Shown in pieces: positions 12,882 through 31,502 of a DNA stretch of 35,778 bases. Below the pieces are notes generated by a model that saw nothing but the letters and a program-made list of their open reading frames with translations, ran no database searches and was not told the DNA's origin. Origin of the DNA: Acidobacteriaceae bacterium (lineage in GTDB: Bacteria; Acidobacteriota; Terriglobia; Terriglobales; Acidobacteriaceae); assembly GCA_003162935.1 (NCBI GenBank), contig PLUW01000122.1, positions 1 to 35,778 of the forward strand, written 5' to 3'. Each line of letters opens with the position of its first letter. Position 1 is the stretch's first letter. Made by a program: the position numbers and the translations under genes.

Positions 12882-12969
12882 GCGATCCCACATATACAAA
12901 CGGACATGACGAGTTGTTAAGCACCCACCATACGGAAACGGCATTGGCAGGCAACGGCTGGATCTCCAG

Positions 12970-12993: not shown

Positions 12994-13142
12994 TCGGCGC
13001 ACCCACGGTGACTATAACCTTAGAGGGTCTTACACAAAACTTGCTATTCTGGCCGAGCAGCCTCTTGTGCGGGTCAATCCCGACGACCGATCATATCTTG
13101 GGGGCTAGGAGAAAATCTCATCCGAAACCAACTAGGTGCCTC

Positions 13143-13643: not shown

Positions 13644-13677
13644 GAAAACGGCGCTCGGCATGGGCGCTGGGAACAGA

Positions 13678-14403: not shown

Positions 14404-14488
14404 GGCCTGAAGGAGAGCCTCACGCGGTGTCGACGAGCTTCGATTAGTAAAGAGCTTCGCTTTGCGACTCCTAACAGTAGAGGGACGG

Positions 14489-14517
14489 TGTTGCGGCAAT
14501 GTTGCGGCAGTGTTAAA
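14489..14517 (-). promoter_or_regulatory. Three 11-bp-phased direct repeats upstream of the response regulator
   Basis: TGTTGCG (14489), TGTTGCG (14500) and TGTTAAA (14511) start exactly 11 bases apart. Read in the gene's direction this is TTTAACA, CGCAACA, CGCAACA. PhoB/PhoP-type regulators bind direct repeats with one helical-turn spacing (B. subtilis PhoP: TT(A/C)ACA-like repeats). The site lies 86-114 bases before ATG 14403. Binding is inferred. Confidence 0.45.
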
Positions 14518-14547
14518 GGAGGGTTAATTTGAGCGCGCGCAGCGTGT

Positions 14548-14565
14548 CCGGGCGAGGACGCCCGG
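14548..14565. repeat. REP-like palindrome between the hydrolase and regulator genes
   Basis: CCGGGCG-AGGA-CGCCCGG, perfect 7-bp arms. The core matches the palindrome inside uvrC (1376-1389) with one difference, so the two belong to one dispersed repeat family. Confidence 0.6.
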
Positions 14566-14594
14566 CGCTCCACTGGGATGGGCAGGATTCCCGA

Positions 14595-15659: not shown

Positions 15660-15711
15660 AGCCTATCAATATTAACGTTCGGTGACTGCCGGCTTTGGCG
15701 CCGTCGGTGGG

Positions 15712-15748
15712 TTCAAAAAGAAGGGCGAGCCGGTAAAATGGCCCGCCC
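15712..15748 (-). terminator. Intrinsic terminator of the first PstS-like gene
   Basis: On the minus strand GGGCGGGCC (15748-15740) pairs with the complement of 15723-15731 with one A-C mismatch across an 8-base loop, then TTCTTTTTG follows. The same arrangement follows the paralogous gene (17892-17927). Confidence 0.75.
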
Positions 15749-15777
15749 CTCGTGTTCGGTACAACAGTTTAGTGGAG

Positions 15778-17571
15778 TTACGGTCTGGTCACACACGCAC
15801 TCGGGTTGTTGTTTACGCTTTGCACGGTTTTTGAACCGGCCCCGGTTTCCTTGATGATGCAGCCGCCCAGGTCTCCGCCAGCTTCGGTTGTCCCGGCGTT
15901 ATGTGGAGCCGCGCCAATCAAGTTGCCGCCGCCGTCGTACTGTTGGTAGTGCGAACGCAGGTGCGTGAGCCCCGGATCTGTGGGATATGGAGCCACTGTC
16001 GTCTTTACAAACGGAACGTAGTCTGGCACGGAGGAGACAACATAGGCCTGCGATTTCTTGATCAGGTCGTTGGCTGCCACTTTGCCTTTTGCGTTGGTGA
16101 CCAGGCGCAGCACCGTCCAGGCACTGTAAGTGCCATTGCGGAGGTTGGGGAACGAGAGTCCGCCTGTCCAAATCTCGCTTTCGGGGCAGGGGAAAGCGCC
16201 AGAGCAGGCAACGGGCAGATTGGCAGCACCCGGTATAGTACCGGCGGTAGTGGGCTGACCGGGGTCGGAGCCGCCGTAGGACGCGAAGAGCGGGTCGACA
16301 CCGTCCAGTTGGATGTAACCGTAAGCGGTGCTATTGGCGACCGAGCTGTAGTTGCCGTAGCCGAAGAGGCCGTAGCCGATGCCGTCCAGTCCACCGAATT
16401 TCGCGGAAGAGTTTTGGACCGACTTTACCTCCTCGCTGGAGCCAATGGCGCGATGACGTGAGCCGAGACCGCTAAGGCAAGTTCCTGACTGGCCTGCGAG
16501 TGGATTATTCGCGCCCACATTGGATTCCTGGCTTAAGCCGAGAACCGAACCCGTTCCCGTGCCGGTGTAAACCGTGGGACGGCGGAATACGGTGGCTTCA
16601 GCAACGTTGCCCTGGCCGGAGATGGGCTCGTTGATGAAGATGTTGATTGCCCCCGCGGCCAGACCGAAGGCGCTGGCGTCGCAGTTGGCGCCCGAGAACG
16701 CCTGTTGCAGTTGAGTGGGAGTTGCGTTGGTGAGACTGGCGAGCGGGCCAATGTTCCGCTCGGTGAAGAATATCAACGGAGTGGCTCCAAAGTTCAGGAC
16801 GTTGTAGCTGGGTATGGTGTCGCCGCTGATGGGGTCGACGCCGCTGATGTTAAAGGCGAGAACATTGGCCTGGGCGGTGCTGCCCGGGTACCCGCTCTTG
16901 ATGGGGTTTCCGACATAGGCTCCAGAGGCTTGGCCGAGGCCGTTGGCCGGGCAAACGCCCGGGGCATTGACGGTGTTGTATCCGAGGCCGTCGAGTTCGT
17001 CGCTGGCGGCACCGCCATAGCTTCCAGCGCCGAGTTGGGAGTTGGTGCGGCACGTCAGGAACAGGGCATCTTCGGGACGGTATACCGTCGCGGCCGCATT
17101 AACGAGGGTTCCGGCCGTGAAGACGGCGGCGATGGCCGCTGGCAAAGCCGAGTCCGCGCCCCAGAATGCGGAAGAGATCTGATTCGCGCCGGTGCCCGTG
17201 AGACTCGCCGACCCGACGATTGAGGTGCACGAAGGCTGGGCAAAGTAGCAGCGTGTTCCGACGACGGCGTCCACCTTGTTGAACGACCATACCTTGGTGA
17301 CGGCGGAATTCCAAACGATCCAGAGGGTGCCGGCGTCGACGTTGTTGGGTGTGACGCGAGTGTCCACGAGGTTGGCAACGTTGGAAGCGCTGGTCCAGTG
17401 CCCAGCACCAGCGCCAGCCTCCTGATAAGCGGCTAACGCGAGCGACTGCCACATGGCCGAAGAGCCCGAGATGGTCAACTGCACGACCACGGGTTTGGCG
17501 TTTGCCAGGGGCACGATGCCTCCAAACATAGCCAACAACAGAGATGCAAAAATCGATTTCATGCGCGACAT
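15778..17571 (-). CDS. Secreted PstS-like binding protein, paralogue 1
   Basis: A 597-residue secreted protein with a signal peptide (cleavage after ANA, about residue 25). The mature N-terminus VVVQLTISGSSAMWQSLALAAY resembles the start of PstS-type phosphate-binding proteins (strand, Gly/Ser loop, helix). Other PBP-like segments: VDAGTLWIVW, NVLAFNISGVDPISGD, INIFINEPISGQGNVAEATVFR (position of the PstS ligand-binding S-G-T loop) and a C-terminal NLRNGTYSAWTVLRLV. It is longer than PstS (about 320-350 residues) and has several Cys (RCYFAQPSC, CLSG, CPESE) that suggest disulfides. No permease or ATPase is nearby. It is tandem with a clear homologue upstream (17957-19804), conserved even at the MSxMKSIF start. 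Ligand unknown; the PstS link is by pattern only. Confidence 0.72.
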   Translation of the reverse strand: MSRMKSIFASLLLAMFGGIVPLANAKPVVVQLTISGSSAMWQSLALAAYQEAGAGAGHWTSASNVANLVDTRVTPNNVDAGTLWIVWNSAVTKVWSFNKVDAVVGTRCYFAQPSCTSIVGSASLTGTGANQISSAFWGADSALPAAIAAVFTAGTLVNAAATVYRPEDALFLTCRTNSQLGAGSYGGAASDELDGLGYNTVNAPGVCPANGLGQASGAYVGNPIKSGYPGSTAQANVLAFNISGVDPISGDTIPSYNVLNFGATPLIFFTERNIGPLASLTNATPTQLQQAFSGANCDASAFGLAAGAINIFINEPISGQGNVAEATVFRRPTVYTGTGTGSVLGLSQESNVGANNPLAGQSGTCLSGLGSRHRAIGSSEEVKSVQNSSAKFGGLDGIGYGLFGYGNYSSVANSTAYGYIQLDGVDPLFASYGGSDPGQPTTAGTIPGAANLPVACSGAFPCPESEIWTGGLSFPNLRNGTYSAWTVLRLVTNAKGKVAANDLIKKSQAYVVSSVPDYVPFVKTTVAPYPTDPGLTHLRSHYQQYDGGGNLIGAAPHNAGTTEAGGDLGGCIIKETGAGSKTVQSVNNNPSACVTRP

Positions 17572-17707
17572 AATCCTTAAATTCCTTTCGCAGGGTTTGT
17601 AGGTCCGGTCCCGTCTCTCGGGCCGAGGGGGAAGCGAGTTCGAGCATAGAGGCGAAATTCCATAATGTCAAGTAGTTCTATAGAGATTATTTCAGTAATA
17701 CATAAAC

Positions 17708-17726
17708 TTTGCACAACCAGTGCAAA
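17708..17726. promoter_or_regulatory. Operator-like inverted repeat upstream of PstS-like gene 1
   Basis: TTTGCAC-AACCA-GTGCAAA, perfect 7-bp arms and 5-base spacer, 137-155 bases before the start codon, in the AT-rich part of the spacer. The size suits a dimeric repressor or activator. No similar sequence was noticed in front of paralogue 2. Confidence 0.4.
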
Positions 17727-17891
17727 AAGTATTCGGCTAGCGGAAAGTGCGGTCATCACGCGAAAACCAGGCTTGGAAATGCAGGTTCAAGTTGTGCTAT
17801 GGCAATAAAGTAGATGGGAGATAAGGATTATGTTCGAGAAGCGGGGTTCTCCGAATCGCGGCCGGCTTGACGGTTGCACTCCGGAGGGCCA

Positions 17892-17927
17892 CCAAAGAGG
17901 AAGGGCGGGCCCATGACAGGCCCGCCC
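17892..17927 (-). terminator. Intrinsic terminator of the second PstS-like gene
   Basis: GGGCGGGCC (minus strand 17927-17919) pairs perfectly with 17911-17903, 7-base loop, followed by TTCCTCTTT. The flanking bases up to the stop codon resemble those after paralogue 1, so the terminator was duplicated with the gene. Confidence 0.7.
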
Positions 17928-17956
17928 TCGTGTTCGATGAAGCGGTTTGAGTGAAG

Positions 17957-19804
17957 TTACGGCGTCACGGGTCGAGTCACACAGGCCGATGACAACGGGC
18001 TGTTGTTCACCAGCCCGGTGGTGGTGGAACCGGCACCGGTTTTGGAGTGGATGCAGCCACCCATGTCGCCGCCCGCCTCTGTGGTCGTGCCCAGGTTATG
18101 GGGCGCCGCACCGAGGAAGTTTCCGGCTCCATCGTACTGTTGGTAGTGCGAGCGTATAAGCTTCAGCCCCGGATCACCCGAGGTCGCCGCAAACGGAATG
18201 TAATCCGGAACGCTAGTGACGTTGAGCTTGTTCCCAGCCACTGAGAGGTCCTTGGCTTGCGCCAGCGACGTGGAGCCGGTTGTGCCCACCAGGCGCACGA
18301 TCGACCAGGCTTTGTAGCTGCCATTGCGAACGTTCGGGAAGGAGAGACCGCCCGTCCAGATATCGCTTTCCGGGCAGGGGAATGTCGAGCTGCAGGTTGT
18401 GGGCAGGTTTGCCGAGCCCGGCAGCGTACCGGCCGAGCCAGGGGACGGATTCGTTGCGGTGGCGGGCTGACCAGGATCGCCACCGGTGTAGGAAGCGAAG
18501 ATCGGGTCCACGCCGTCCAGCTGAATGTAGCCTTGGCTCGGGAGGTTGGCGATCGAACTGACGTTGCCGTAGCTGAAGAACGTGTAGCCGATGCCGTCGC
18601 GACCGCCAAACTTAGCGGCCGAGTTGGCAACCGACTTGACTTCCTGGCCGGTGCCAATGGCGCGATAGCGCGCGCCGGCGCCGGACAGGCAAGTTCCAGA
18701 CTGCCCGTTGAGCGGGTTGTTGGAAGGAGCGTTGACGTTGGCTTCCTGGCTGATGCCAAGAGTGGAACCGGGATAGACGTCCGGTTTGCGGAATACAGTG
18801 GCTTCGGTGGTGTTCATTGTGCCCGACAGCGGTTCGCGCAGGAAGATGTTAATGCCGCCGGAGGCTAGACCCAACGCGCTGGCGTCGCAGTTGTTTCCCG
18901 AGAACGCCTGTTGCAGTTGCAGATCGGTGGCGTTGGTCAGAGTGGCGAGTGCGGACGCACGCTGATCGATGAATACGATGGGAGTGGCTCCCACTTCCAC
19001 AACCGAAAAGGCCGGGATGGCGGTGCCGGTGATGGGGTCGCTGCCGCTGATGTTGAACGACACAACGTTGGCCTGCGAAGGGCTGCCGGGGTACGCGCCC
19101 TGGATGGCGGTTCCCTCGTAGTAAGCGGTTGAGGCCAGGCCCGAGGGTGAGCCGAAGACACCTGGACAAAGGCCCGACGTGAGACCGGGGCTATTGTTGT
19201 AGCCGAGGCCGTCCGTGCCGTCGGTGCCAAAGCTTCCGTTGCCGAGCGGTGAGTTAACGCGGCAAACGACGAAGGCTGCATCCTCAGGACGGATATCGGT
19301 GGCGGCGACGTTGACTGCAGTTCCAGCGCCGTTGAAAAAAGCCTGCACTGCAGCCGGAGGTGTCGAGTCCGCTCCCCAAAGATTGGTTCCGATCGCCTGA
19401 TCGGCGCCCGTCCAAGTGGTCACTTGCACCGAGCATGCGGGCTTGGCGAAGAAACAACGGTCGCCCACGACGGAGTCCACTTTGGTGAAAGCCCAGACCT
19501 TGGTCGCACCCGAAGTCCAAACAAGCCAGATGGCGCCAGCGTCGGTGTTGCTGATCCGGTTGTCCACGAGGTTGGTGTTGTTAGCATTCTGGGACCAGTG
19601 GCCGGCCGCAATGCCGTGAATTGGGGCGGGGCAGGTGGGGTAGTGGGGACAGGCGAGGCTCCAGGCGCCGAGCGCCTGACTCTGCCACATGGCCGAGGAT
19701 CCGGCAATATTGACCTCCAGTACGGTTGAGGCTTGGGCCAGAGGCGCAAGACCCAAGAGCGCGGTCAAAAGAAGCAATCCGAAAATCGATTTCATATGCG
19801 ACAT
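17957..19804 (-). CDS. Secreted PstS-like binding protein, paralogue 2
   Basis: A 615-residue secreted homologue of the 15778-17571 product. Signal peptide cleaved after AQA (about residue 25), then VLEVNIAGSSAMWQSQALGAW. Shared blocks include NLVDNRISNTDAGAIWLVW, KVDSVVGDRCFFA, VVSFNISGSDPITG, INIFLREPLSGTMNTTEATV, YIQLDGVDPIFASY and PNVRNGSYKAWSIVRLV. The S-G-T in the central loop and the N-terminal Gly/Ser loop are the PstS-like features. Compared with paralogue 1 it has an insertion near residue 55 with two extra Cys (CPHYPTC). The start ATG 19804 has a GAGGG ribosome site about eight bases upstream. Phased repeats at 19991-20019 may activate it. The two genes are separated by a terminator, so each is probably transcribed on its own. 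Confidence 0.74.
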   Translation of the reverse strand: MSHMKSIFGLLLLTALLGLAPLAQASTVLEVNIAGSSAMWQSQALGAWSLACPHYPTCPAPIHGIAAGHWSQNANNTNLVDNRISNTDAGAIWLVWTSGATKVWAFTKVDSVVGDRCFFAKPACSVQVTTWTGADQAIGTNLWGADSTPPAAVQAFFNGAGTAVNVAATDIRPEDAAFVVCRVNSPLGNGSFGTDGTDGLGYNNSPGLTSGLCPGVFGSPSGLASTAYYEGTAIQGAYPGSPSQANVVSFNISGSDPITGTAIPAFSVVEVGATPIVFIDQRASALATLTNATDLQLQQAFSGNNCDASALGLASGGINIFLREPLSGTMNTTEATVFRKPDVYPGSTLGISQEANVNAPSNNPLNGQSGTCLSGAGARYRAIGTGQEVKSVANSAAKFGGRDGIGYTFFSYGNVSSIANLPSQGYIQLDGVDPIFASYTGGDPGQPATATNPSPGSAGTLPGSANLPTTCSSTFPCPESDIWTGGLSFPNVRNGSYKAWSIVRLVGTTGSTSLAQAKDLSVAGNKLNVTSVPDYIPFAATSGDPGLKLIRSHYQQYDGAGNFLGAAPHNLGTTTEAGGDMGGCIHSKTGAGSTTTGLVNNSPLSSACVTRPVTP

Positions 19805-19964
19805 GGTTGTGATCCCTCTCTATAGGAAATGTTGGTGAAGACTCTTTCGTTGCGCATGGGGCTCTTGGCCCCACACAGGATCGCGGCTCCGTCCAGCGTG
19901 CGCTGCGCGAGTGTTTCCGATCCGCGCATAGCAACTCTTCGCAGCTAAGCTTGAATTTAGGGCG

Positions 19965-20019
19965 AGTCTATCCGCTAGTTCGCCGTGCGATGTTAAGGTT
20001 CCGTGACAAGTTGGTGAAA
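19965..20019 (-). promoter_or_regulatory. Phased repeats and -10 box in front of PstS-like gene 2
   Basis: Read on the plus strand, TGTTAAG (19991), CGTGACA (20002) and GGTGAAA (20013) start 11 bases apart; on the gene's strand they are TTTCACC, TGTCACG and CTTAACA. A minus-strand TAGACT at 19970-19965 could be the -10, placing the repeats at about -33 to -61, the usual position for PhoB/PhoP activation. The motif resembles the repeats before the response regulator (TTTAACA). Inferred. Confidence 0.4.
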
Positions 20020-20300
20020 ATTCCTTAATGTGACGCGCGCGGAACGATGCGCCAATTCAGGCTTTCCCACGCGCGCCCGCGCTAAGTGCGGCATGTGGTG
20101 CGACTTCCGCGCTGCCGGTTTCGTCGTAGAACGGCGGCTTCGGCTGTGGAAAAAAACAGAGTTATCCAGCCTGGCATCTTGGCGCGTTGGATTGGAGTTC
20201 CTGAACGCAGAGCCTTATTGAGATAGAGCTGGAGGTAATGGCAGAGCCAGATACTGGGGGCGGGAATCGCAGGATTGGCTGGAGCGGGCGTCTGTTGCGG

Positions 20301-20360
20301 CTTTGCGGGACCGCAAAGTCAAGTAAAGAAATAGGATAAAGTCTATTTATTTACTTGACT
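20301..20360. repeat. Two abutting palindromes upstream of the TBDR operon
   Basis: First: CTTTGCGG-GA-CCGCAAAG (20301-20318), perfect 8-bp arms. Second: arms AGTCAAGTAAA (20317-20327) and TTTACTTGACT (20350-20360) are perfect, and inside them AAATAG (20329-20334) pairs with CTATTT (20343-20348) across an 8-base centre. Overall 17 of 18 arm positions pair over 44 bases. The second is strikingly AT-rich for this GC-rich region, and its right arm contains the TTGACT used as a candidate -35. Confidence 0.75.
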
Positions 20361-20384
20361 ATATTCCGCGGGCCGTTCTATGCT
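20355..20384 (+). promoter_or_regulatory. Candidate promoter of the TBDR operon
   Basis: TTGACT (20355-20360), 18-base spacer, TATGCT (20379-20384), giving a leader of about 120 bases before ATG 20512. A second -10-like TACAAT (20477-20482) has only a poor -35 (TTGGGG, 15-base spacer). If the first is used, the palindrome overlaps the -35 and would act as an operator. Confidence 0.4.
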
Positions 20385-20511
20385 TTTCAATCAAGTGGTT
20401 GGCCGGTCGGCGTTCGGGAAGAGCGGCCGTCGGCGATTTTCACACTCCCTTAACCTTGGGGCCGTGGACCGCCGGATACAATCCCCCCTTGCAACTGCAT
20501 TCGAAGTGCAT

Positions 20512-23500
20512 ATGACTCTGGAGCGTTTAAGAGTGCCAAGTTCTGCGCTTTGTGTCTTTTCCCGTATCGTCCGCGTGTCGGCGCTCGTGCTGATTGGGCT
20601 GTCGTTGAGTGCGGCGCAAGAGTCGCCGGCGGTGGCGGACGGTAAAGGCTCCATCCACGGGACGGTGACCAGCCAGGCGGGCGCGATCGTAGCGGATGCG
20701 AAAGTGGTGCTGACAGGAACTGGAGGCGCGAGACTTGCCGTTCCGGTCAATGCCAAGGGCGAATATTCCGTTACCGGTCTCTTTCCGGGGACTTATATGG
20801 TCACAGTGTCGGCGGTCAACTTCGCCGACCTTGTCTTTGACAATGTCACGCTGGCACCCGGCCGAAAGCTGACACTGGACGCCACCCTGAAGCCGCCGAG
20901 CGCCAAGCCGGCAGTCGAGCCGAGCGGCGCGGAGCAAGTGGACCAAAGTGCGGCTCCGGCTGCTAAGACAATTGCGGGGGACAAGGGCGCAATCAGCGGC
21001 ACCGTGACCGACCAGACCGGAGCCGTCGTAGTCGATGCGAAAGCGGTGCTCACCGGCGTTGCGGGAGCAAAACTCGAAACCCAAGTCAATGAAAAGGGAG
21101 CGTACTCGTTCAGCGGGCTGGAGCCGGGAACTTACAAGCTGGTGGTAACAGCGACTAATTTCGCCGACATGCCATTTGACAATGTCGTGGTGACAGCGGG
21201 GCTCGAATTAGCGCTCGATGCTTCCCTGGCGACGGCGAGAGCCAAGAAGGAAGAAGTGAACGTCGAGGGCGGCGGCGTGGGACAGGTGGAGACTGAGACC
21301 GCCACGGCCTCCAGCACGATTACGACAAAAGAAGTTGTGTCGATCGGACTCAATGGACGGAATTTCACGCAACTCATCGCGCTCGCGCCCGGCGTCAGCA
21401 ATCAGACGGGGCAGGACGAAGCCAAGGTTGGAGTTGTGGGCAGCGTGAAGTACAGCGTGAACGGCGGCCGGGTCGAGTACAACACCTTCGAGGTCGATGG
21501 CAGCGACGTACTCAACACGGGACTGAATGGCGCCGCAGCCACACTGATGGTCTATCCGAGCCTGGATGCGATTCAGGAAGTGAAGGTAATCACGGCGAAC
21601 TACGGCGCACAGTACGGGCGCACGGCGTCGGGTACGGTGCAAGTCACGACCAAGTCCGGAGCGCCGAAGTGGCACGGAAACCTCTACGACTTTATCCGCA
21701 ACGAAGCGTTTAACTCGCGCAATTACTTCGACGTTGTCTATACCCAGCCGACTCCTCCCGGACAGACTACGCCCGGGGCGGTCATTGGGGACCATGCTCC
21801 GCTGTACCGGCGGCAGGATTTCGGAGGAACCATCGGTGGGCCGCTCTACATTCCCCACCTCTTCAACACCACAAAGGACAAGACGTTTTTCTTTTACTCG
21901 GAGGAATTTCGGCTGGAGAAAACGCCTACAGAGTACAACGAGGCGGTGCCGGGTTTGAAGGAGCGCGGCCTGCTCCTGACTTCGCAGGGGCTGCAACCGA
22001 ACCTGCAGATGGACCCCGCGACGGGAGTTTATTTCCAGGATTTCGACTTTACCGACGTGTGCCCGGCGAACACCACCGACTTCGTTCGCTCACAGTACCC
22101 AGACTGCCCGTCGCTGCTGAGCCAGGGAGGTGGTGGGGTCCTGATAGCGCTGCCGCATTTGCAAGCGGGCGCTGGTTTTTCGCCGAGCGGCACCAGTGTG
22201 GATAAGAACGCGCTAGCGATCCTCAATGCGAATCTGATCCCGCTGCCCAACGCGCCGTTTGGCTGCAACCTCAGCGTGGCCAATTACAATGCCGCCAGCC
22301 CCGACCCGACCGACCCCAACCGCTGTTACGACCTGGCAGTTTCCCCATCGACATACTGGCGCGAGGAGTTGTTTCGCATCGATCAAGTAGTCAGCGATAA
22401 GTTTAAAGTGTCGTTTCGCTACATTCACGACTCCTGGGACACGACGGTGCTGACCCCGCAGTGGAGCTACCTGAGCATCACCCACCCCTCGGCGGCGACG
22501 TTCCCCACCGTTCAGAACCGTTTCTTTGGGCCGGGCACAAGCCTGGTGGCGCGGCTCACGAACACCATCTCGCCCGCGCTGCTGAACGACTTCGTGGCCA
22601 GCTACGTGAATTCGAGCATTACTCTTCGGGACGAGAACGGGCCGGGCGGCGCGGTGTTTCAGCGCAATCCCACTCTGGATCAGCCGCTGGTTCAAGATCC
22701 GTCGGCGCCGGGACAATGCAACCCCGTGCTGAGCGCCGATCCGGCCACGGGCTTCCCGCAATGCGCGATTGGCTACATTTTCAACAATGGGTTCGGCGGC
22801 AAAATGCCCGGAGTCGAGTTTCTGGGGACGAACGCGGCGTACGGCGGCAGGGGGTTTGCGGTCGACCCCTCCTACATGCCGTGGGGACACACCAACCCGA
22901 CGTACTCTGCGCGCGACGACATCGGCAAAGCGCTCGGGAAGCACACGCTGCAATTCGGAGCACAATATGTGTACTCGCAGCGCAATCAGGATAACAACGC
23001 GATTGGCGCGGCTTCGGGAGACACACAGGGCCTGTTGACTTACAACAATCTGGCGCACAGCACGGGAAACGCCTTTGCCGACTTCCTGGTGGAGAAAGCC
23101 GACTCGGCAGGGAATCCCACTGGCTTCATCCAGAGCTTTACCCAGGATTCGGCGAAGCACCGCTACTACCAGCGCTACCAGATCGCGGAGCCGTATTTCG
23201 AAGATGACTGGAAGGTCATGCACAACCTCACGGTGAACCTGGGTTTGCGCGTCAGTCTGTTTGGCACCTACAGCGAGAAAAACCGCAACGCATGGAACTG
23301 GGAAGCGTCGCGATTTAATCCGACGCGATTTGCGGTCGATCCGGTGTATGGCGAACTGCTGGATGGAAATGCCGGGTCGACTCCGGTGCCGTTCAATCCC
23401 GTCACGTTTCAGATCGACCCTGGCGTGGTGAGCGACCTGGGTCTGGTGCGATGCGGGTATGACGGTACGCCCGCCAGTTGCATGAAAGGTCATTTGTTCA

Positions 23501-25146
23501 ATCCGGCGCCGCGCGTTGGTTTTGCCTGGGATCCCTGGGGCGACGGCAAGACGTCGATTCGCGGCGGCTATGGAATTTTTTTTGAGCATGGCACGGGGAA
23601 CGAAGCGAACACGGGATCGCTCGAGGCGAGCGCGCCGGTCGTGCTCAGCATGACGCAGCAGCTTCCGCTGAGTTACACCTGTATCGGCAACGTCGGGTAT
23701 GGACCGGCGTTTGACCCCACCAATGCGGCTTGCGCCAGCCCCGCGGCGACTGCGAGTTCCGTGCAACCTGCGGCTGGTTCTGTTTTTCCCCTGGATGTCA
23801 CATCGATCCCGACCAAAGCGACCTGGCCGTATGCACAGCAATGGAGTTTTGGAGTGCAGCGGGAACTGCCCAAAGCGTTCGTCCTGAATATGGCTTATGT
23901 GGGAAGCAAGGGAACGAAATTGACGGTCGAGCGGCAACTCAACCAGTTGCGGCCGTTGCCGGCGAGCGAGAATCCGTTTGCACTGAACGAGCCCCTGACG
24001 ATTGCGGACTGCACGGTTCCAGCTCCGAACTATTCAGCGCCTGGATCATTAATCGGCAAGGAATGGCAACCGTTCCAGCTCATGGATGGACACACGGTCT
24101 CGGCACAAGACGCCGCCTATGTGTATTTGCAGGCGGCGTGCACAAATCCGAACATTCCGAATGTAAACGCTCTTGTCGTCGTCGGACCGAACGGTTCGAC
24201 CCCCGCAAGGCCCTACCCGGGTCTGGGAAGGGTCCTGTCGCTGCAGAATGTGGCCAACTCGAGCTATCACGCGCTCCAGACCACGGTGAGGCACAGCAGC
24301 GGACCGCTCACGCTCGGCATCTCCTACTCGTACAGCCACTCGATCGACGACGCTTCGGATCGAAGCGATCCGGTACTGGTGGACTCTTACGATCTGCGGG
24401 AGAACAAGGCCAGTTCCAGTTTCGACGAACGTCATCTGGCGACGGTCAGCTACGTATATCAGTTGCCGCTCAAGAATTTTCCGCGCAACTTCGTCGACCT
24501 GGTCGAGGAGCGGCAACCCGATGCCGACGCCCCGCCCAAGGCAAGCTGCTGCTCGAAGCTTTCGAATGAGATTCTCGATGGCTGGGAGCTTTCGGGAGTC
24601 ACGCTCTACGCTTCGGGAACGCCGTTCACGGTGATCAACAGCGCCGGGAACACCGGTATTTCGCTGACCGACAACGCTGGAGTGTCGAGCGGACTGGGCG
24701 TCGCCGCATCGTATCCCGACGTGGTGAAATCGCTGCCGTCGCCCGGCAACAATTCCCAGAGCTTCGGGCGGCTCATCGGCAACCCATCGGAGTTTGTGGC
24801 TCCGCGAGGACTCACGTTTGGCGACGCCGGCCGGAACTTTCTGAATAATCCGTACCGCGTGAACTTCGATATGGCGTTGCTGAAACATTTCAAGGTGCGG
24901 GAAACGGGCGTGCTGGAGTTCCGGGCCGAGGTGTTCAACATTTTCAATCACACTCAGTTCCGGGTCTACGATCCCGACAACCCGGGCAGCACGGGAAACA
25001 ATATCGTGAGTTGCTACGCCGGGCCGCTGTATTCCGCCGGGTTTAAGGGCAGCGCGGCCGATTGCGTGACCGGGGCTTCGTTCCTGCACCCGCTCGACGC
25101 CCATCGTCCGCGCACGATGCAGTTTGGACTGAAGCTGGGCTTTTAG
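20512..25146 (+). CDS. TonB-dependent receptor, Oar-like, with duplicated N-terminal carboxypeptidase-regulatory-like domain
   Basis: Outer-membrane protein of 1544 residues, longer than the 1000-1200 usual for acidobacterial Oar-like receptors. Signal peptide about 1-35. Two tandem beta-sandwich domains, 46-127 (KGSIHGTVTSQAGAIVADAK) and 158-239 (KGAISGTVTDQTGAVVVDAK), repeat with a 112-residue period. The plug follows (about 265-400: TITTKEVVSIGLNGRNFTQL, then NGGRVEYNTFEVDG and a GRTASGTVQVTTKSG segment), then the long beta barrel, ending in an aromatic residue (FGLKLGF) as outer-membrane assembly requires. The frame is open 44 codons upstream, but that ATG (20380) overlaps the candidate -10, and ATG 20512 gives the signal peptide. 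First gene of a unit with three lipoproteins. Substrate unknown. Confidence 0.92.
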   Translation: MTLERLRVPSSALCVFSRIVRVSALVLIGLSLSAAQESPAVADGKGSIHGTVTSQAGAIVADAKVVLTGTGGARLAVPVNAKGEYSVTGLFPGTYMVTVSAVNFADLVFDNVTLAPGRKLTLDATLKPPSAKPAVEPSGAEQVDQSAAPAAKTIAGDKGAISGTVTDQTGAVVVDAKAVLTGVAGAKLETQVNEKGAYSFSGLEPGTYKLVVTATNFADMPFDNVVVTAGLELALDASLATARAKKEEVNVEGGGVGQVETETATASSTITTKEVVSIGLNGRNFTQLIALAPGVSNQTGQDEAKVGVVGSVKYSVNGGRVEYNTFEVDGSDVLNTGLNGAAATLMVYPSLDAIQEVKVITANYGAQYGRTASGTVQVTTKSGAPKWHGNLYDFIRNEAFNSRNYFDVVYTQPTPPGQTTPGAVIGDHAPLYRRQDFGGTIGGPLYIPHLFNTTKDKTFFFYSEEFRLEKTPTEYNEAVPGLKERGLLLTSQGLQPNLQMDPATGVYFQDFDFTDVCPANTTDFVRSQYPDCPSLLSQGGGGVLIALPHLQAGAGFSPSGTSVDKNALAILNANLIPLPNAPFGCNLSVANYNAASPDPTDPNRCYDLAVSPSTYWREELFRIDQVVSDKFKVSFRYIHDSWDTTVLTPQWSYLSITHPSAATFPTVQNRFFGPGTSLVARLTNTISPALLNDFVASYVNSSITLRDENGPGGAVFQRNPTLDQPLVQDPSAPGQCNPVLSADPATGFPQCAIGYIFNNGFGGKMPGVEFLGTNAAYGGRGFAVDPSYMPWGHTNPTYSARDDIGKALGKHTLQFGAQYVYSQRNQDNNAIGAASGDTQGLLTYNNLAHSTGNAFADFLVEKADSAGNPTGFIQSFTQDSAKHRYYQRYQIAEPYFEDDWKVMHNLTVNLGLRVSLFGTYSEKNRNAWNWEASRFNPTRFAVDPVYGELLDGNAGSTPVPFNPVTFQIDPGVVSDLGLVRCGYDGTPASCMKGHLFNPAPRVGFAWDPWGDGKTSIRGGYGIFFEHGTGNEANTGSLEASAPVVLSMTQQLPLSYTCIGNVGYGPAFDPTNAACASPAATASSVQPAAGSVFPLDVTSIPTKATWPYAQQWSFGVQRELPKAFVLNMAYVGSKGTKLTVERQLNQLRPLPASENPFALNEPLTIADCTVPAPNYSAPGSLIGKEWQPFQLMDGHTVSAQDAAYVYLQAACTNPNIPNVNALVVVGPNGSTPARPYPGLGRVLSLQNVANSSYHALQTTVRHSSGPLTLGISYSYSHSIDDASDRSDPVLVDSYDLRENKASSSFDERHLATVSYVYQLPLKNFPRNFVDLVEERQPDADAPPKASCCSKLSNEILDGWELSGVTLYASGTPFTVINSAGNTGISLTDNAGVSSGLGVAASYPDVVKSLPSPGNNSQSFGRLIGNPSEFVAPRGLTFGDAGRNFLNNPYRVNFDMALLKHFKVRETGVLEFRAEVFNIFNHTQFRVYDPDNPGSTGNNIVSCYAGPLYSAGFKGSAADCVTGASFLHPLDAHRPRTMQFGLKLGF

Positions 25147-25160
25147 TAAGTGGAATCATC

Positions 25161-26645
25161 ATGCCGAGATTGACGAAAGATCGAACGCTTTGCCGCACGA
25201 ATCGTCCGTTGCGTGCGAGTCGTTGGCTGCCTTCGCGCCGGTTTGGAGCAGGGTCCGGAGAGCGTCTGCTGCTGGCGTTGCTGTGCACGACGACGCTGGC
25301 TGGCATCCTGATACTTTCGGCGTGCGGGAGCGGCAGTTCCAGCACTTTGCAAGCAAACGTATCGTTGTCAGGCAACTGGCAGTTCACGATGGCGCCTCCG
25401 GGCGACGGTTCGTTCCTCGGCGGGCTGCAAGGCGGGTTCGTGGTGCAGAGCGGTAGTTCGGCGACGGGAGCCGCGGCCTACGCCGTCTCCTCGCCGCAAC
25501 TCCCGATCCCGTGCAACACGGGATCGGCGGCGATCACGGGAACCATAAGCGGCCAGGACGTGACCATCATGGCAGTCGCGGGCACTCAGACTTTCACGCT
25601 CACAGGAACGCTGAGTTTCAATGGCACGCAGGACTATGGTTCCACGTTCGTTGGCGAAACGATGGTAGGTACCTACAATTCGACCGCCGGCACAGCCGCC
25701 GATGGAGCGCCTTGCGGGACCGAGCAAACCGGGCTGCAATGGAGCGCCGTTCTGGTGCCGCCGATGACAGGCGGGATTCAGGGGAGCTTCCATAGTACCG
25801 ACGCAACCACGGGGCTGAACAACCAGGATTTCCTGCTTACAGGATCTCTGACGCAGGCAGCGAACACGGGCGCGAGCAGCGCCGTGGTCACGGGCACGTT
25901 GAACTTCACGAGCCAGGCATCGGATTCCAGCGTCTACCCTTGTTTCGATACGGCGTCGATTTACGGTCAGATCAGCGGCAGTTCCGTCACGCTACAGATC
26001 GTGGGAGCCAGCCAGGCGATCGTGGGTCTGATTGGGGCGCCAGCCGGAACCAACGGAACGACGGGCCTGAATCCGGTGGCGTTCGTCTCCTCGCAGGGCG
26101 GCTACATTCTGAATGGGGTTGGACCTTCTTACTTAGTGGCTACAAGCGCGTGTCCGGGCAGCACCGGCAACACCGGCGCCGCGGGGGACTATGGGGATAT
26201 GTGCCTTTCGGTGGGAAGCCCTTTGGGAACGGCTAACGCTTGCCAGCAACCGTTCTCGCTGACTCCGGCCAGTTTGACTTTCCCCGCACTCGCGGTTGGC
26301 AAAACCGCGACGCAAGCGATCTCGCTGGTAAACCAGTCGAACGGCGCGCTGAATGGCATGGTCTTGGCGGTAGCTGATAATCCGGCAAACGCGACTAACT
26401 TTTCGGAGACGGACAACTGCGGGTTCGAAGGAGTTCCGTCGCTGGGGCAGCCGTTCGCTCTCACCTCGGGGCAGGCATGCACGATCACGGTCACATTTGC
26501 TCCGCAGAGTGCGTCGCCATTGAGCGCAACTCTTAACCTGACCAGCCCGGTGAGCGCGGACAACGATACGGCTTTTGCTGTACCCATCGCGGGTACGGGA
26601 GTCAGCGGGGACGCAGATGTGGAGCGTTATGCAGAGATCGACTAG
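25161..26645 (+). CDS. Secreted lipoprotein with choice-of-anchor/Hydin-like Ig domain (lipoprotein 1)
   Basis: A 494-residue lipoprotein: hydrophobic LLLALLCTTTLAGILILSAC with the lipobox cysteine at C55, followed by GSGSSS. The next 300 residues are beta-rich, Gly/Ser/Thr-rich (SGNWQFTMAPPGDGSFLGGL, QTFTLTGTLSFNG, GGIQGSFHSTDATTGLNNQD) and homologous to the N-terminal part of lipoprotein 2. From about 365 there is an Ig-like domain of the ASPM-SPD-2-Hydin type (LTPASLTFPALAVGKTATQ, ACTITVTFAPQSASPLSATL). ATG 25161 lies 14 bases after the TBDR stop; GTGGA at 25150 is a weak ribosome site. Probably anchored in the outer membrane and exposed to the surface or periplasm; ligand unknown. Confidence 0.82.
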   Translation: MPRLTKDRTLCRTNRPLRASRWLPSRRFGAGSGERLLLALLCTTTLAGILILSACGSGSSSTLQANVSLSGNWQFTMAPPGDGSFLGGLQGGFVVQSGSSATGAAAYAVSSPQLPIPCNTGSAAITGTISGQDVTIMAVAGTQTFTLTGTLSFNGTQDYGSTFVGETMVGTYNSTAGTAADGAPCGTEQTGLQWSAVLVPPMTGGIQGSFHSTDATTGLNNQDFLLTGSLTQAANTGASSAVVTGTLNFTSQASDSSVYPCFDTASIYGQISGSSVTLQIVGASQAIVGLIGAPAGTNGTTGLNPVAFVSSQGGYILNGVGPSYLVATSACPGSTGNTGAAGDYGDMCLSVGSPLGTANACQQPFSLTPASLTFPALAVGKTATQAISLVNQSNGALNGMVLAVADNPANATNFSETDNCGFEGVPSLGQPFALTSGQACTITVTFAPQSASPLSATLNLTSPVSADNDTAFAVPIAGTGVSGDADVERYAEID

Positions 26646-26652
26646 GAATCCT

Positions 26653-29001
26653 ATGCGGTGTCGTACGAATCGCGAACTGCCTGCGACCGCGTTCTACGGG
26701 TTCGGCGTGAGGGGTCTGTTGCCATTGCTGCTCGCGGCTGTGGTGACGCTGACGGCGTGTGGGGGAAGCAGTTCTCCCAGTTCGCAGCAGGGCGCAACGC
26801 TGGCGGGCAACTGGCAGTTCACGATGGCGCCGCAGACGGATGGGAACCAGGCCGATCCGACTTTCAGCGGCGGTCTGCTGGGCGGGTTTTTGTTGGATAC
26901 AAATGGTTCGATCAACGGGCAGACGGGTTACTCGGTTACATCGTCGGCTTCCATCACGGGACCATGCAACGCCGGATCGGCTCCCGTGGCGGTAACGGTC
27001 AGCGGGCAGAACGTGACCATTACAGAGGTCGCCGGCTCACAGACATTTACGCTGACTGGAACACTCAGTTCCGCCGGGTCGACGATGATGGGAACCTACA
27101 CGTCGACGGCCGGGACGGCGCCCGACGGCTCACCTTGCGGATACGCCGTGACCGGAACCTCATACACGTGGAGCGCAACTTCGGTGCCGCCGATTACCGG
27201 AACCATCACCGGGAGCTTCCACAGTACGAGCGAGACATCGGGTCTGGCCAATCAAGACTTCATCGTGTCGGGATCGCTTGCCCAGGGACAAAATATCGGC
27301 GCGAGCAACGCGACGGTGACCGGCACCTTGAGCTTTATCAACCCGGTCACAAGTCTAAGCAACTACCCTTGTTTCTCGGTTGCCTCGGTGAACGGCCAGA
27401 TCAGCGGCACGTCTGTCATTTTGCAAATCATTGGGACGAACGGAGCGACGGTGGGTTGGATGGGCCAACCGGCGGGTTCGCCGACGGGCGTCAATCCCGT
27501 GACCTTGAACACGGTGCAGGGTGGGGCGGTCGTTCTGCAAGGGGTGGGGCCCTCTTACATGGTAGTTACCGGCGCTTGCCCGGGCATCCTCTCCAATGCC
27601 ACTGATGCCGGCGACTCGGGAAACATCTGTCTGGGATTAAACAGCACAACCGCTTGCCAGGAACCGATTACGCTGACTCCGGCGGTTGTGACTTTTCCCG
27701 CTCAGATGCTGAATTCGCCGACAACGACGCAGACGATCACGCTGGCAAACAATTCCGGCTCCACGCTGAACGGTCTGACGTTGCAGTGGCAAGTCGATAC
27801 CGGATCGTTCGACGGAAATCCCAGCGATTTCGACGGGCTGCCGAACTTTTTGGAGCAGGATACGTGCGCCTCTCCCTTCGGGTCGAGTTTCTCGCTCAGC
27901 GCGGGCGGGTCCTGCACGATCACGGTTTCCTTTACTCCGCAGGAAGGCTGCCCTTGGATTCCGTTCCCTTATGGAGGCAATCCGGCGGGCATCACGGGGA
28001 TTGCGCCGGAATATTGTCCTTTTCCTCTGGGCGCAACCTTGACAGTGGTCAGCCCATCGAGCGCGGACGGCGAAACCTCTTTTGCCGTGCCCATCACCGG
28101 CCTCGGGCTGAGCGCTCTTCAACCGTCCACGCCCGAACTCGATTTTGGCGCGGAGGAACAGTTCAGTCCCGCCGAGGCGAGTCTTCCTCAGGCGTTGTCG
28201 TTCACGAACAATAGCCCGAATCCAGTGCAGATCCTCGGCAGCGCTGCGTGCGTGAATCCGCCGAAGGGGTCGCTCACGCTTCCGCACCCCTTGTTGGCAA
28301 CCAGCCGGGTTGCCGGCCTGCAAGTGGTAGGCACTCCCCCGGGCGTAACGAATTCCATTACAGCCGACAATGAAACCATCCAATACAACTGCGACAGCGA
28401 TTCCGGCACCTTGAAGCCAAACTTCCAGATCTCGTCGGACACTTGTATGGGCGCGTTGCTGGCTCCACAGGCTTCGTGCAGCGTCGAGGTGATCTATGTG
28501 CCGCAGCCGAACACCAGTCTCAATAGCGGTCTGGATTATTTTTTGGAACTGAACACGGTGCAATGCACCAATGCAGTGAATGAACCCCCGTCTCCGCCCA
28601 ACTGCGAAATCGACAGCGGACGTTTTCCGGTGGAGTTGAGAGCCAATGAGCCGAGCTCGCTGCGGATGTCTCCCAGCGCGGGGCTGGATTTTGGGTACCA
28701 GAAGAAGGGCACGACGAGCGCTCCGTTGACGATTACGCTGCTCAACGACCCGAGCCTGGCGACGACCCAGACCGTGACCTTCATCGGCAGGATTGCGGTG
28801 ACGGGAAGCAGCTATACGGAAAGCGACAATTGCCCGGCTGCCCTGGCTCCCGGCGCGAGTTGCACTCTGATCGTGACGTTCACACCCGGCAGTGTGGGAT
28901 TCGTGAAGGGTAACCTCACCATCGATTACACCGAGACCTCGAGCGCGGGGTCGAGCACCGGGCTTCCCCAATACGTGTATCTGCGGGGCACGGGGCAATA
29001 G
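26653..29001 (+). CDS. Secreted lipoprotein with several Ig-like domains (lipoprotein 2)
   Basis: A 782-residue lipoprotein, paralogue of lipoprotein 1. Lipobox LTAC with C36, then GGSSS. The N-terminal beta-rich region repeats lipoprotein 1 (AGNWQFTMAPQTDG, QTFTLTGTLSS, GTITGSFHSTSETSGLANQD, YPCFSVASVNGQISGTSV). Three Hydin/choice-of-anchor-D-like domains follow: about 350-480 (LTPAVVTFPAQML), 490-640 (PELDFGAEEQF) and 650-775 (AGLDFGYQKKGTTSAPLT, ASCTLIVTFTPGSVGFVKG), two more than lipoprotein 1. Start: ATG 26653 with AGGA five bases upstream, seven bases after the previous stop; earlier in-frame ATGs (26575-26629) overlap lipoprotein 1 and are less likely. Both N-termini share CRTNR, evidence of duplication including the signal region. 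Confidence 0.82.
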   Translation: MRCRTNRELPATAFYGFGVRGLLPLLLAAVVTLTACGGSSSPSSQQGATLAGNWQFTMAPQTDGNQADPTFSGGLLGGFLLDTNGSINGQTGYSVTSSASITGPCNAGSAPVAVTVSGQNVTITEVAGSQTFTLTGTLSSAGSTMMGTYTSTAGTAPDGSPCGYAVTGTSYTWSATSVPPITGTITGSFHSTSETSGLANQDFIVSGSLAQGQNIGASNATVTGTLSFINPVTSLSNYPCFSVASVNGQISGTSVILQIIGTNGATVGWMGQPAGSPTGVNPVTLNTVQGGAVVLQGVGPSYMVVTGACPGILSNATDAGDSGNICLGLNSTTACQEPITLTPAVVTFPAQMLNSPTTTQTITLANNSGSTLNGLTLQWQVDTGSFDGNPSDFDGLPNFLEQDTCASPFGSSFSLSAGGSCTITVSFTPQEGCPWIPFPYGGNPAGITGIAPEYCPFPLGATLTVVSPSSADGETSFAVPITGLGLSALQPSTPELDFGAEEQFSPAEASLPQALSFTNNSPNPVQILGSAACVNPPKGSLTLPHPLLATSRVAGLQVVGTPPGVTNSITADNETIQYNCDSDSGTLKPNFQISSDTCMGALLAPQASCSVEVIYVPQPNTSLNSGLDYFLELNTVQCTNAVNEPPSPPNCEIDSGRFPVELRANEPSSLRMSPSAGLDFGYQKKGTTSAPLTITLLNDPSLATTQTVTFIGRIAVTGSSYTESDNCPAALAPGASCTLIVTFTPGSVGFVKGNLTIDYTETSSAGSSTGLPQYVYLRGTGQ

Positions 29002-29003
29002 CG

Positions 29004-31091
29004 ATGGCGAGCATGACGATGCGATTCAATTCTGGGAGGCCGGCAGTGGCGAGCAAACGATCGATTCTGGTTCTTTTAGCGGCGGCGACGATTGCATTTC
29101 TTGCCGGATGCGGAGGAGGAAGCACGGCGAACGTGCAGAATCCTCCACCGCCGCCGCCGTCGAACCTCTCCATCGCTTTTCAGCCTGAGCCCGGAGGAAC
29201 GCTGGCGGTCAGCTTCACGGAAAATCTCACGGCGGTGGTCACCAACGACGCTCAAAACCTTGGCGTCGATTGGTCCTTGACCTGCCCGAACCCTCAGAAT
29301 ATTCCCAGCCTCTGTGGCAGTCTTAGCGCCTTGCACACCGCAAGCGGTACTGCTACAACCTTCACGGCGCCCTCTGCGTTTTTCGCGAATTCCATGGACG
29401 TGGAAATTGTGGCCTATGCTGCAGCAAATCACAATACAAACACTGTCGCGCCAATTCTGATCACCAGCTTTACCAGCGGCCTTCAGGCGGGCAACTATGT
29501 TCTGCAGGCGCAGGGAGTGGATTCCAGCCTGAGCCCATACCAGATTGCTGCCGCGATCACGCTCGACGGCCAGGGGAACGTTACGGGCGGAGAGCAAACG
29601 GCCAACTACGCCGCGACAGGGTCTTTATCGGACAAAATCAATCCCGCGGGCAGCAATTATTTCATCGGCAGCGACGGACGCGGATCTATCACCCTGCAAA
29701 CTGGGGATAACAAGATTGGCGGGAATGGCGTCGAGACGTTTGCTTCTGTGTTCCTGAACAATAGCAACGGGGGGAATCCCCGGGCGCTGATCTCGCAAAT
29801 GGACCTCGGAAGCGCGGCCACCGGCGCCTCGGCGACCGGGACTCTGTCTTTGCAGGCAAGCGCGCCGACAGCGCCTTTGGGCGGCTATGCCTTTGTAGTC
29901 AACGGCACCGATGTTGCCAACGTCAACAACCCGCCGGTGGCTTTCGGCGGAGTCTTGAATATCGACTCGGCCAACACAATCTCGGGAAATGGCAGCGTGA
30001 CCGATGAGATCCTCGGAAAGAAAGTGAACGCAACTGCGGTGGGGGTCTCCGGAACGCTGACGGCTCCGGATCAGTTTGGCGTGCTCACATTGAACCTGAC
30101 GGCCCCGTTCGGCACCGCTGGCAAGCCCGTGTCGTTGCAGTTCACCGGCTACATTGTCGACGGTTCCCACATCCAACTCATTGAGACCGACGCCGCTGCC
30201 GGCGCTGCCTCTCCGTTTGGGTTGACCGCTGGACCGGCCATCGGCCAAGGCACGGCCACCGGAACCTTTACCGGCAACGCGTCGTTCACCGGCACCTACG
30301 TGTTCGGTATTCCGGGAGTGGACCTCAGCAACAGCAATCTCGCGCCGTCCACCTTGACTTCGGCGGGTCTGTTCACGGCCGATGGTGCCGGCAATCTGAC
30401 CAATGGATTCACGGACACCTTCCTGGATTTGAATGGAACTTCAGAAACGGGCGCTCAGATCAGCGCTCCTTTTACTGGAACCTATTCCGTCGATTCCAGC
30501 GGAACGGGCCGCGCCAGCCTGACTTCCATCACCTTCACTCCCGAGCCAAAGCACGGGTATAACCCTACCTTGTTTTTCTACCTCACCGGCACCGGCAGCG
30601 AAAATACGCCGCTAGTGCTCGAAGGCGGGGACACGCACTATCCATCGGTAGGAACGGGAATCGCGTACCCGCAATCGGCTGCGGCTCCTGCTTTCAGCGG
30701 CGATTACGGGCTTCGCTTCACGCAGGAGCTGGAGGGTTCCGAAAACGACGGCACCGGCCAGTGGAATGCGAACTCGACAACAACGCCGCCCTCTTTGTCT
30801 GGCGCAGCGGACGTCAACATTTCCGGCGCCAATCAGGACCAACCATTTACGGGAACCTTCGCTGCACCTACGGCTGCCACTCCTTTTCCGGGTACGTTGC
30901 TGGGAACCACCAACAATACGGTGAGCAGCGCGGTGTTCAGCCCCCAAATCACGGTGGATTATTACTTCATCGACGCCAGTCACGGTTTCTTCATCGAAAC
31001 CGATTTGCTGACCCCGGGCGCACAGCAGAACGGACAAGTGTCGCTCGGATATTACGCCGAGCGGACTCCCGTCTGCAGCGGTTGCCCATAG
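29004..31091 (+). CDS. Secreted lipoprotein with tandem beta-rich repeats (lipoprotein 3)
   Basis: A 695-residue lipoprotein: ILVLLAAATIAFLAGC, lipobox cysteine C36, then a Pro6 linker (about 47-52). An Ig-like stretch (about 55-155) is followed by about four copies of a 120-150-residue unit that begins G-x-Y-x-F/L and often carries T-x-DGxGN-x-T-x-G: LQAGNYVLQAQG, LGGYAFVVNGTD, FTGTYVFGIPG, FSGDYGLRFTQ. Not homologous to lipoproteins 1 and 2 as far as I can see. ATG 29004 is two bases after the previous stop, so it is translated from the same message; no terminator with a T-run follows the stop at 31091. I do not know the function; the layout suggests a surface-exposed binding protein working with the TBDR. 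Confidence 0.8.
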   Translation: MASMTMRFNSGRPAVASKRSILVLLAAATIAFLAGCGGGSTANVQNPPPPPPSNLSIAFQPEPGGTLAVSFTENLTAVVTNDAQNLGVDWSLTCPNPQNIPSLCGSLSALHTASGTATTFTAPSAFFANSMDVEIVAYAAANHNTNTVAPILITSFTSGLQAGNYVLQAQGVDSSLSPYQIAAAITLDGQGNVTGGEQTANYAATGSLSDKINPAGSNYFIGSDGRGSITLQTGDNKIGGNGVETFASVFLNNSNGGNPRALISQMDLGSAATGASATGTLSLQASAPTAPLGGYAFVVNGTDVANVNNPPVAFGGVLNIDSANTISGNGSVTDEILGKKVNATAVGVSGTLTAPDQFGVLTLNLTAPFGTAGKPVSLQFTGYIVDGSHIQLIETDAAAGAASPFGLTAGPAIGQGTATGTFTGNASFTGTYVFGIPGVDLSNSNLAPSTLTSAGLFTADGAGNLTNGFTDTFLDLNGTSETGAQISAPFTGTYSVDSSGTGRASLTSITFTPEPKHGYNPTLFFYLTGTGSENTPLVLEGGDTHYPSVGTGIAYPQSAAAPAFSGDYGLRFTQELEGSENDGTGQWNANSTTTPPSLSGAADVNISGANQDQPFTGTFAAPTAATPFPGTLLGTTNNTVSSAVFSPQITVDYYFIDASHGFFIETDLLTPGAQQNGQVSLGYYAERTPVCSGCP

Positions 31092-31171
31092 GGAAAACGG
31101 GCTCGTACCCGGGGGATTGTCGAGCGTCGGCGGAGCGCCGTCTCTGACCAACGATGGGCGCCTCCTGCTCT

Positions 31172-31201
31172 TTGCTCGCACCCCGACCGGCGCGTTACAC
31201 T
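31172..31201 (+). promoter_or_regulatory. Promoter of the DUF3467-GT39 pair
   Basis: TTGCTC (31172-31177), 18-base spacer, TACACT (31196-31201). The expected transcription start, near 31208, coincides with the ATG at 31209, pointing to a leaderless mRNA. Confidence 0.5.
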
Positions 31202-31208
31202 GCGAAAT

Positions 31209-31502
31209 ATGAATACAACGAATCAACCGAATGTGAAGTTCGTTCAAACCCCCGACTACCGCGAAGCTTATGCCAACAGCGTGCAAATTCGGGTCAATGT
31301 CTGGGATTTTTTCCTGGTCTTCGGCACCATGCAGCAAAGTACGGAAACGCAGGTGGAACTGCGAAACTTTCAGGGAATTTATCTGAGCCCGCAGCAGGCC
31401 AAGGCGCTGATGGCGCTCATGCAGCAAAATGTCTCGAACTACGAGGCCGCGTTTGGCGAGATCAAGCTTGATCCTCGCGCGCCGGGCGGACCGATTCACT
31501 GA
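31209..31502 (+). CDS. DUF3467 family protein
   Basis: A 97-residue cytoplasmic protein with the DUF3467 pattern: PDYREAYANSVQIRVNVWDFFLVFG, then TQVELRNFQGIYLSPQQAKALMALMQQNVSNYE and a short C-terminal tail. The family is small, widespread and of unknown function; its fold is probably a beta sheet with one helix. The ATG at 31209 sits at the predicted transcription start with no ribosome site. Its stop (TGA) shares a base with the ATG of the following GT39 gene, so the two are translated together. That coupling is the only clue to a role. Confidence 0.9.
   Translation: MNTTNQPNVKFVQTPDYREAYANSVQIRVNVWDFFLVFGTMQQSTETQVELRNFQGIYLSPQQAKALMALMQQNVSNYEAAFGEIKLDPRAPGGPIH

Follow-up and report, generated by a model that had tools for sequence, protein, structure and literature searches.

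The closest described systems to the one considered here occur in Flavobacterium, where loci encoding TonB-dependent transporters (TBDTs) with lipoproteins, and PusCD loci, are induced by low phosphate (PMC8115612). Two further systems bear comparison. The Oar protein of Myxococcus xanthus is needed for secretion of the protease PopC, in a study that classes TBDTs by their CarboxypepD_reg N-termini (PMC6434023), and VreA, VreI and VreR of Pseudomonas aeruginosa form a PhoB-controlled set of receptor, sigma factor and anti-sigma factor (PMC4971064). We have analyzed a 35,778-nt stretch of DNA from an Acidobacteriaceae bacterium (GCA_003162935.1, contig PLUW01000122.1, forward strand), the whole of which is termed the window. 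It carries a gene cluster encoding two secreted proteins that resemble PstS (family PL; individually PL1 and PL2), a TonB-dependent receptor (TBDR), three lipoproteins (LP1 to LP3) and a secreted hydrolase-like protein. From comparative analysis of sequences we consider that the cluster is probably a Pho-regulated outer-membrane system for the acquisition of phosphorus.

In acid and peat soils, where available phosphate is scarce, Acidobacteria are abundant. The literature that we searched contains little on their acquisition of phosphorus at the outer membrane, and the cluster provides a concrete candidate. Loci drawn for comparison are given L numbers and the genomes of relatives G numbers, the window's own genome being G000.

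Linkage of the core genes

A sequence-only reading of this DNA had proposed that the PL pair cooperates with the TBDR and lipoproteins across a shared divergent region of 707 bases. The open reading frames and coordinates of its six genes were verified, and the divergent region corresponds to 19805-20511. A seventh gene, omitted from that reading, lies at 14595-15659 on the minus strand and starts 118 bases beyond PL1. This encodes the hydrolase-like protein, and is a member of the core.

Within the Acidobacteriaceae, the PL gene is linked to a TBDR gene in most of the loci drawn; the two halves of the cluster are neighbors throughout the family, and at more than a single position in the chromosome, rather than being separated in related genomes. 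Among 298 genomes of the order, PL was found in 47 by a single-sequence search and in three more by a family profile that was run on selected genomes, giving 50. The hydrolase-like family is present in 51 of the 298. Both genes occur in 48 genomes, PL alone in two and the hydrolase-like gene alone in three, two of which are fragments (Fisher p about 3e-49), and the two genes directly adjoin each other in 40 of the 47 distinct loci. Most loci also hold a relative of the window TBDR next to this pair; in one subgroup it is some kilobases further away. When a phylum-wide sample of 396 genomes was searched with the PL profile, one carrier was found outside the family.

The TBDR (20512-25146, plus strand) is 1544 aa in length; an in-frame ATG at 20380 would extend it to 1588 aa. 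The two N-terminal domains that had been remarked upon are CarboxypepD_reg domains (PF13620, two stretches). The barrel is of the OMP_b-brl_4 family (PF25183, E 1e-136 in Pfam), and the plug matches PF07715 at 23.0 bits, slightly below the cut-off of 23.9. The 45 TBDRs of the loci form one clade (support 100), apart from 21 non-locus paralogues of which 20 come from the genome of the window and one from that of a relative. The tree was made by a method that readily joins long branches, but the separation is large. The locus TBDRs are 43-77% identical to that of the window, compared with about 26-31% over its length for the best own-genome paralogue, and about 26% over long alignments for the paralogues of the window's genome.

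In the window the module is bounded by an M28 peptidase gene (10263-12173) and the glycosyltransferase-like gene pmt2 (31502-33127). In relatives of the genus these two genes are directly adjacent, constituting an empty site, in L144, L147, L149, L150 and L153. The module occupies the same site in the orientation of the window in L145; in L157, L158 and L050/L100 it is inverted. Some genomes with the empty site hold it elsewhere. Because both the site and the orientation of the module vary, and relatives exist in which the site is empty, its linkage is not mere background synteny. The gap between M28 and pmt2 (12173-31502 in the window) is an insertion hot spot that accepts diverged versions of the module either way round; no integrase was recognized.

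The genus contains two diverged types of module, and the three core genes of any one locus are always of the same type. The identities for the two types are about 51-64% versus 30-33% for PL, 63-75% versus 40-48% for the hydrolase-like protein and 66-77% versus 44-46% for the TBDR. As the type is the same for all three genes at each locus, the core genes travel together; genome G293 carries both types. The divergence of the core genes is correlated (Mantel r 0.56-0.68), which supports their co-inheritance but is not separable from the species phylogeny.

Insertion at a hot spot and a patchy distribution (the 47 of 298 genomes of the single-sequence search) are what might be expected if the genes were chance neighbors, or passive hitch-hikers on a genomic island, the two halves having no function in common. 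We regard this as very unlikely, given that the same three genes are linked at several sites and in several orientations, that their TBDRs form a dedicated clade, that their divergence is correlated and that shared boxes, to which we now turn, face both arms.

Direct repeats between the divergent arms

PHO boxes consist of 11-nt direct repeats with a species-specific motif, for example CTGTCAT (E. coli) or GTTCACC (S. coelicolor; PMC4415409). When the divergent regions were compared among near relatives, a conserved element that reads towards PL2 was found on the minus strand at 19989-20028, ATTAAGGAATTTTCACCAACTTGTCACGGAACCTTAACAT. It comprises three direct repeats of 11 bp, holding TTCAC-N6-GTCAC-N6-TTAAC with a spacing of exactly 11 bases, and the consensus of the repeat is KTMAY-N6. 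About 20 bases downstream of the element lies a further conserved sequence, GATAGACT.

A regular expression for three repeats gave 54 matches in the drawn loci, compared with 0, 0, 0, 1 and 2 in shuffled sequences. Fifty of the 54 lie upstream of PL, the TBDR or a small intervening gene; they come from 20 loci and in many cases face both arms. Because the pattern was derived from the same loci, the count does not by itself amount to independent evidence. An independent test was provided by a four-repeat pattern in whole genomes of 29 relatives, where 34 matches were found as against five for a reversed control, four of the five being in one genome. Ten of the 34 belong to the module. A near-identical element located before pstS accounts for eight (all seven of the genes checked pass the PstS equivalog model TIGR00975), one is located between ppk1 and a gene for a porin-like protein, 3.5 kb from pstS and close to a ppx-like gene, and two precede secreted phosphoesterases of PF04185. 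The remainder precede unknown or unrelated genes, and some of these are chance matches. Since the genomic matches fall at pstS, ppk1 and phosphoesterase genes, the repeats of the module are of the same kind as those that accompany classical phosphate genes in these genomes. The cluster thus probably scavenges phosphorus, because it shares its DNA switches with genes of the classical phosphate-starvation response.

The proposal that the two halves cooperate is supported by the conserved neighborhood and by the presence of PHO-box-like elements on both halves in many loci, the evidence being comparative. An OmpR-family regulator adjoins the module in some relatives; its best NCBIfam match is PhoB, below the cut-off.

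Two side observations concern these boxes. A small secreted Ig-domain protein of about 280-300 aa is encoded between PL and the TBDR in L050, L051, L053 and L055, with its own box facing it. Four-repeat boxes also stand before genes for secreted YncE/lactonase-like beta-propeller or similar proteins in G149:C1, G231:C22 and G070:C18 (L165, L175 and L189), and these genes are possible new members of the Pho regulon.

The PL proteins and the PstS anion motif

PL1 (15778-17571, minus strand, 597 aa) and PL2 (17957-19804, minus strand, 615 aa) are paralogues that are 58% identical. They had been described as PstS-like. The likeness holds at the level of the family, where a profile of 34 PL proteins finds the PstS structures 4n13, 1twy and 4exl with E values of 1e-4 to 1e-3. 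It is nevertheless remote, as neither protein matches a Pfam or NCBIfam family or passes a curated PstS model in either collection. Among the window genes that were scanned no pstCAB lies beside PL (other loci being only partly annotated), and no phoU adjoins it. One weak match to the PstS domain PF12849, on contig C24 of the window's genome, was considered and set aside as unrelated; it is not a pst operon.

In PstS, as exemplified by the E. coli protein, the motif R-xxx-SGT anchors phosphate. The segment of PL that aligns with PstS ends in this anion motif, which is conserved across the 34 PL proteins (R in 33, S in 32, G in all 34 and T in 31). PL2 retains it as REPLSGT. As PL1 has NEPISGQ at this position while PL2 keeps the motif, the two members of the pair have probably diverged. 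Both PL copies of L005 also have an altered anion loop.

PstS-type folds are known to bind several oxyanions. Taken with the changed loops of PL1 and the two L005 copies, this raises the alternative that the system takes up another oxyanion or a carrier-bound nutrient, such as arsenate, a sulfate ester, a phosphonate or a metal-phosphate chelate, and is merely co-regulated with phosphate genes. We judge this distinctly unlikely. The canonical loop is kept in most PL members, and the regulatory elements match those found at pstS and ppk rather than at genes for other anions.

A hydrolase-like protein lacking its nucleophile

The protein encoded at 14595-15659 is 354 aa in length (346 aa from the second ATG) and is predicted to be secreted. 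Its family profile and its predicted model (pLDDT 60, and used for the fold only) both match alpha/beta hydrolases, the best being acetyl xylan esterases. However, the nucleophilic serine of the GxSxG motif is replaced in every one of the 28 aligned members, by glycine in 26 (including the window protein, GxGxG), leucine in one and asparagine in one, and the C-terminal part contains no conserved histidine. The protein is thus most likely a pseudo-enzyme, the alternative being an unusual active site. Among its invariant residues are H179-D180-V181-Q182 and W230-x-D232-W233; these may form a binding surface.

Lipoproteins and replaceable partners

The TBDR gene is followed on the plus strand, at gaps of 14, 7 and 2 bases as had been reported, by the genes for LP1 (25161-26645, 494 aa, LSAC lipobox), LP2 (26653-29001, 782 aa, LTAC lipobox) and LP3 (29004-31091, 695 aa, LAGC lipobox). 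LP1 contains one choice-of-anchor-D/ASH domain and LP2 more than one, while LP3 has no assigned family. All three proteins indeed have lipoboxes, but they are not wholly distinct as first thought, since LP1 and LP2 are 47% identical over nearly all of LP1. None resembles SusD, with no SusD family found up to E 1 in Pfam, in agreement with the sequence-only reading. Domain searches revealed no phosphatase among the module genes, nor is there a glycoside hydrolase in the module.

LP1-3 are found only in the nearer clade, where LP1 is not always separate. In distant loci their place is filled by large secreted proteins with Ig-like, TIG, NHL, MBG, CHB_HEX or He_PIG domains. By sequence comparison, the constant core is therefore PL, the hydrolase-like protein and the TBDR, and the lipoproteins are the replaceable part.

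The variable partners look like surface or adhesive proteins, and the hydrolase-like protein has lost its nucleophile. These features, together with the precedent of Oar, lead to the main rival explanation, export or display of the Oar type. The cluster would then be a phosphate-starvation module for surface remodelling or protein export under Pho control, with transport outwards: the TBDR would export or display the beta-rich lipoproteins or PL, with PL and the dead hydrolase acting as periplasmic chaperones. We think this unlikely, though the large beta-rich partners make it attractive. Nearly all PL members keep a ligand-type anion motif that a chaperone would not need, the company of the regulon (pstS, ppk and phosphoesterases) is nutritional, and TBDRs of the CarboxypepD_reg class are abundant in the window's genome and unlikely all to be exporters.

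Evidence against phosphorus acquisition

A number of observations weigh against a Pho-regulated phosphorus-acquisition system. Linkage alone fits another function of a TBDR equally, protein export for example. The PL proteins are about twice as long as PstS, with the remainder having no known relatives; PL1 has lost both the arginine and the threonine of the anion motif; and structure prediction for PL2 from 11 sequences was poor (pLDDT 40), so that it was not used for fold searches. No PstS was found in the window's own genome by PF12849 or TIGR00975, in an assembly that is 83% complete, and comparison of the window with the boxes at pstS was consequently made through relatives. That genome also contains no four-repeat box. 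For both reasons the Pho reading in the window rests on one three-repeat element kept in near relatives. The three-repeat box was not seen in about half of the loci, mainly distant ones. OmpR-family regulators other than PhoB use similarly spaced direct repeats.

In addition, several distant loci have an ECF sigma factor instead, encoded between PL and the region of the TBDR. With VreAIR as a described PhoB-controlled example, this could indicate cell-surface signalling, in which the TBDR and PL would sense external phosphate or another ligand and control the sigma factor, transport being secondary. We attach very little weight to this explanation: no sigma factor is present among the genes of the window or the near clade, and the window TBDR has CarboxypepD_reg domains and gave no match to the STN signalling domain in a domain search. 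As a separate observation, the distant modules L054, L056, L070, L072 and L075-L080 encode sigma-70 region 2 proteins, in one case inside a protein of 923 aa, and in some of the sigma-bearing loci a neighbor with an H-x3-C-x2-C stretch looks anti-sigma-like.

Other features and flanks

Terminator-like hairpins lie 3' of PL1 (15720-15751, minus strand, 12 pairs, one of the two strongest in the region) and 3' of PL2 (17901-17929, minus strand, 13 pairs of which nine are G-C). An 18-bp inverted repeat (20317-20360, plus strand), 94% complementary, spans a promoter-like TTGACT 150 bases 5' of the TBDR; it has only one short match among relatives (L045). In promoter and terminator scans of the region the overall number of sites was near chance, and an Rfam scan of the window gave no match.

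The absence of an ABC transporter applies to the module itself; a molybdate-type modCBA is located just outside it (33203-35755). As relatives that lack the module still carry modC and/or the preceding gene, modCBA was rejected as flank. The gene pmt2 was likewise considered, and rejected as flanking DNA. A HigB-like (Gp49) toxin and addiction-module antidote pair (12217-12857, plus strand) lies beside the module in the variable gap between M28 and pmt2.

A model for the system

Five computed observations support phosphorus acquisition: the genes are linked, their TBDRs form a dedicated clade, PHO-box-like elements are present, the PL family has the PstS-type anion motif and the hydrolase-like protein has lost its nucleophile. 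The ligand, the direction of transport, the cellular location of PL, the formation of a complex and the role of the dead hydrolase are inferred. On phosphate starvation, a PhoB-type response regulator would bind the tandem repeats of 11 bp in the region between PL2 and the TBDR and so activate both arms. At the surface, lipoproteins LP1-3 might capture or anchor a ligand that contains phosphorus, or the carrier of such a ligand, and the TonB-powered TBDR would move the ligand across the outer membrane. The PstS-like proteins would bind phosphate or a phosphoryl group via the R-xxx-SGT loop and hold or relay the ligand, with the catalytically dead alpha/beta-hydrolase-fold protein as their putative obligate partner or scaffold.

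The cluster is apparently a conserved, undescribed unit of soil Acidobacteria, and the uptake hypothesis of the sequence-only reading has likely gained a substrate class, phosphorus. It is conceivable, if somewhat short of probable, that it represents an undescribed class of outer-membrane phosphorus scavenger, nearly confined to one acidobacterial family. Such a class would combine a long PstS-like protein with a TBDR in place of an ABC transporter, with the dead hydrolase as obligate partner and lipoproteins swapped between lineages, and it may replace PstS in genomes like that of the window. If true, PstS-like proteins would be used outside ABC transport. The repeats offer an initial, computational view of the PHO box in Acidobacteria, and their pattern provides a regulatory handle for finding the rest of the regulon.

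Comparison with known systems

No description of this gene combination was found in the literature searched, the coverage of which is incomplete, so that this is weak evidence of novelty. The hydrolase-like protein shares its fold with the CE7 acetyl xylan esterases, but differs from them in that the position of the catalytic serine is occupied by glycine, leucine or asparagine throughout the family. PL resembles the PstS of the Pst ABC transporter in its central segment, in the R-xxx-SGT loop and in having PHO-type boxes upstream. It differs in its doubled length, in lacking adjoining pstCAB and phoU, in falling below every curated model and in its linkage to a TBDR.

M. xanthus Oar possibly belongs to the same broad class of CarboxypepD_reg TBDTs, a likeness judged by architecture (PMC6434023); the module is set apart by its Pho-type regulation and PstS-like partners. 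With the P. aeruginosa PUMA3/VreAIR system it has in common a receptor-like protein under PhoB control and, in some distant loci, an ECF sigma factor, whereas VreA is thought to be periplasmic and to function in signalling only, and has no PstS-like partner (PMC4971064).

Like the SusCD systems of glycan uptake, the module has a TBDR and surface lipoproteins in one transcription unit, but it contains neither a SusD domain nor a glycoside hydrolase. The Flavobacterium loci share with it TBDTs with CarboxypepD_reg-like domains and surface lipoproteins, some having unassigned lipoproteins downstream. There, however, PusD is SusD-like and phosphatases are present, so the module, lacking SusD and with no phosphatase among its genes, is not a member of the PusCD group. 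On our reading it would act in a similar way, but with components that are unrelated to theirs. What it has and the Flavobacterium loci do not is the PstS-like pair and the dead alpha/beta-hydrolase-fold partner, in a different phylum.

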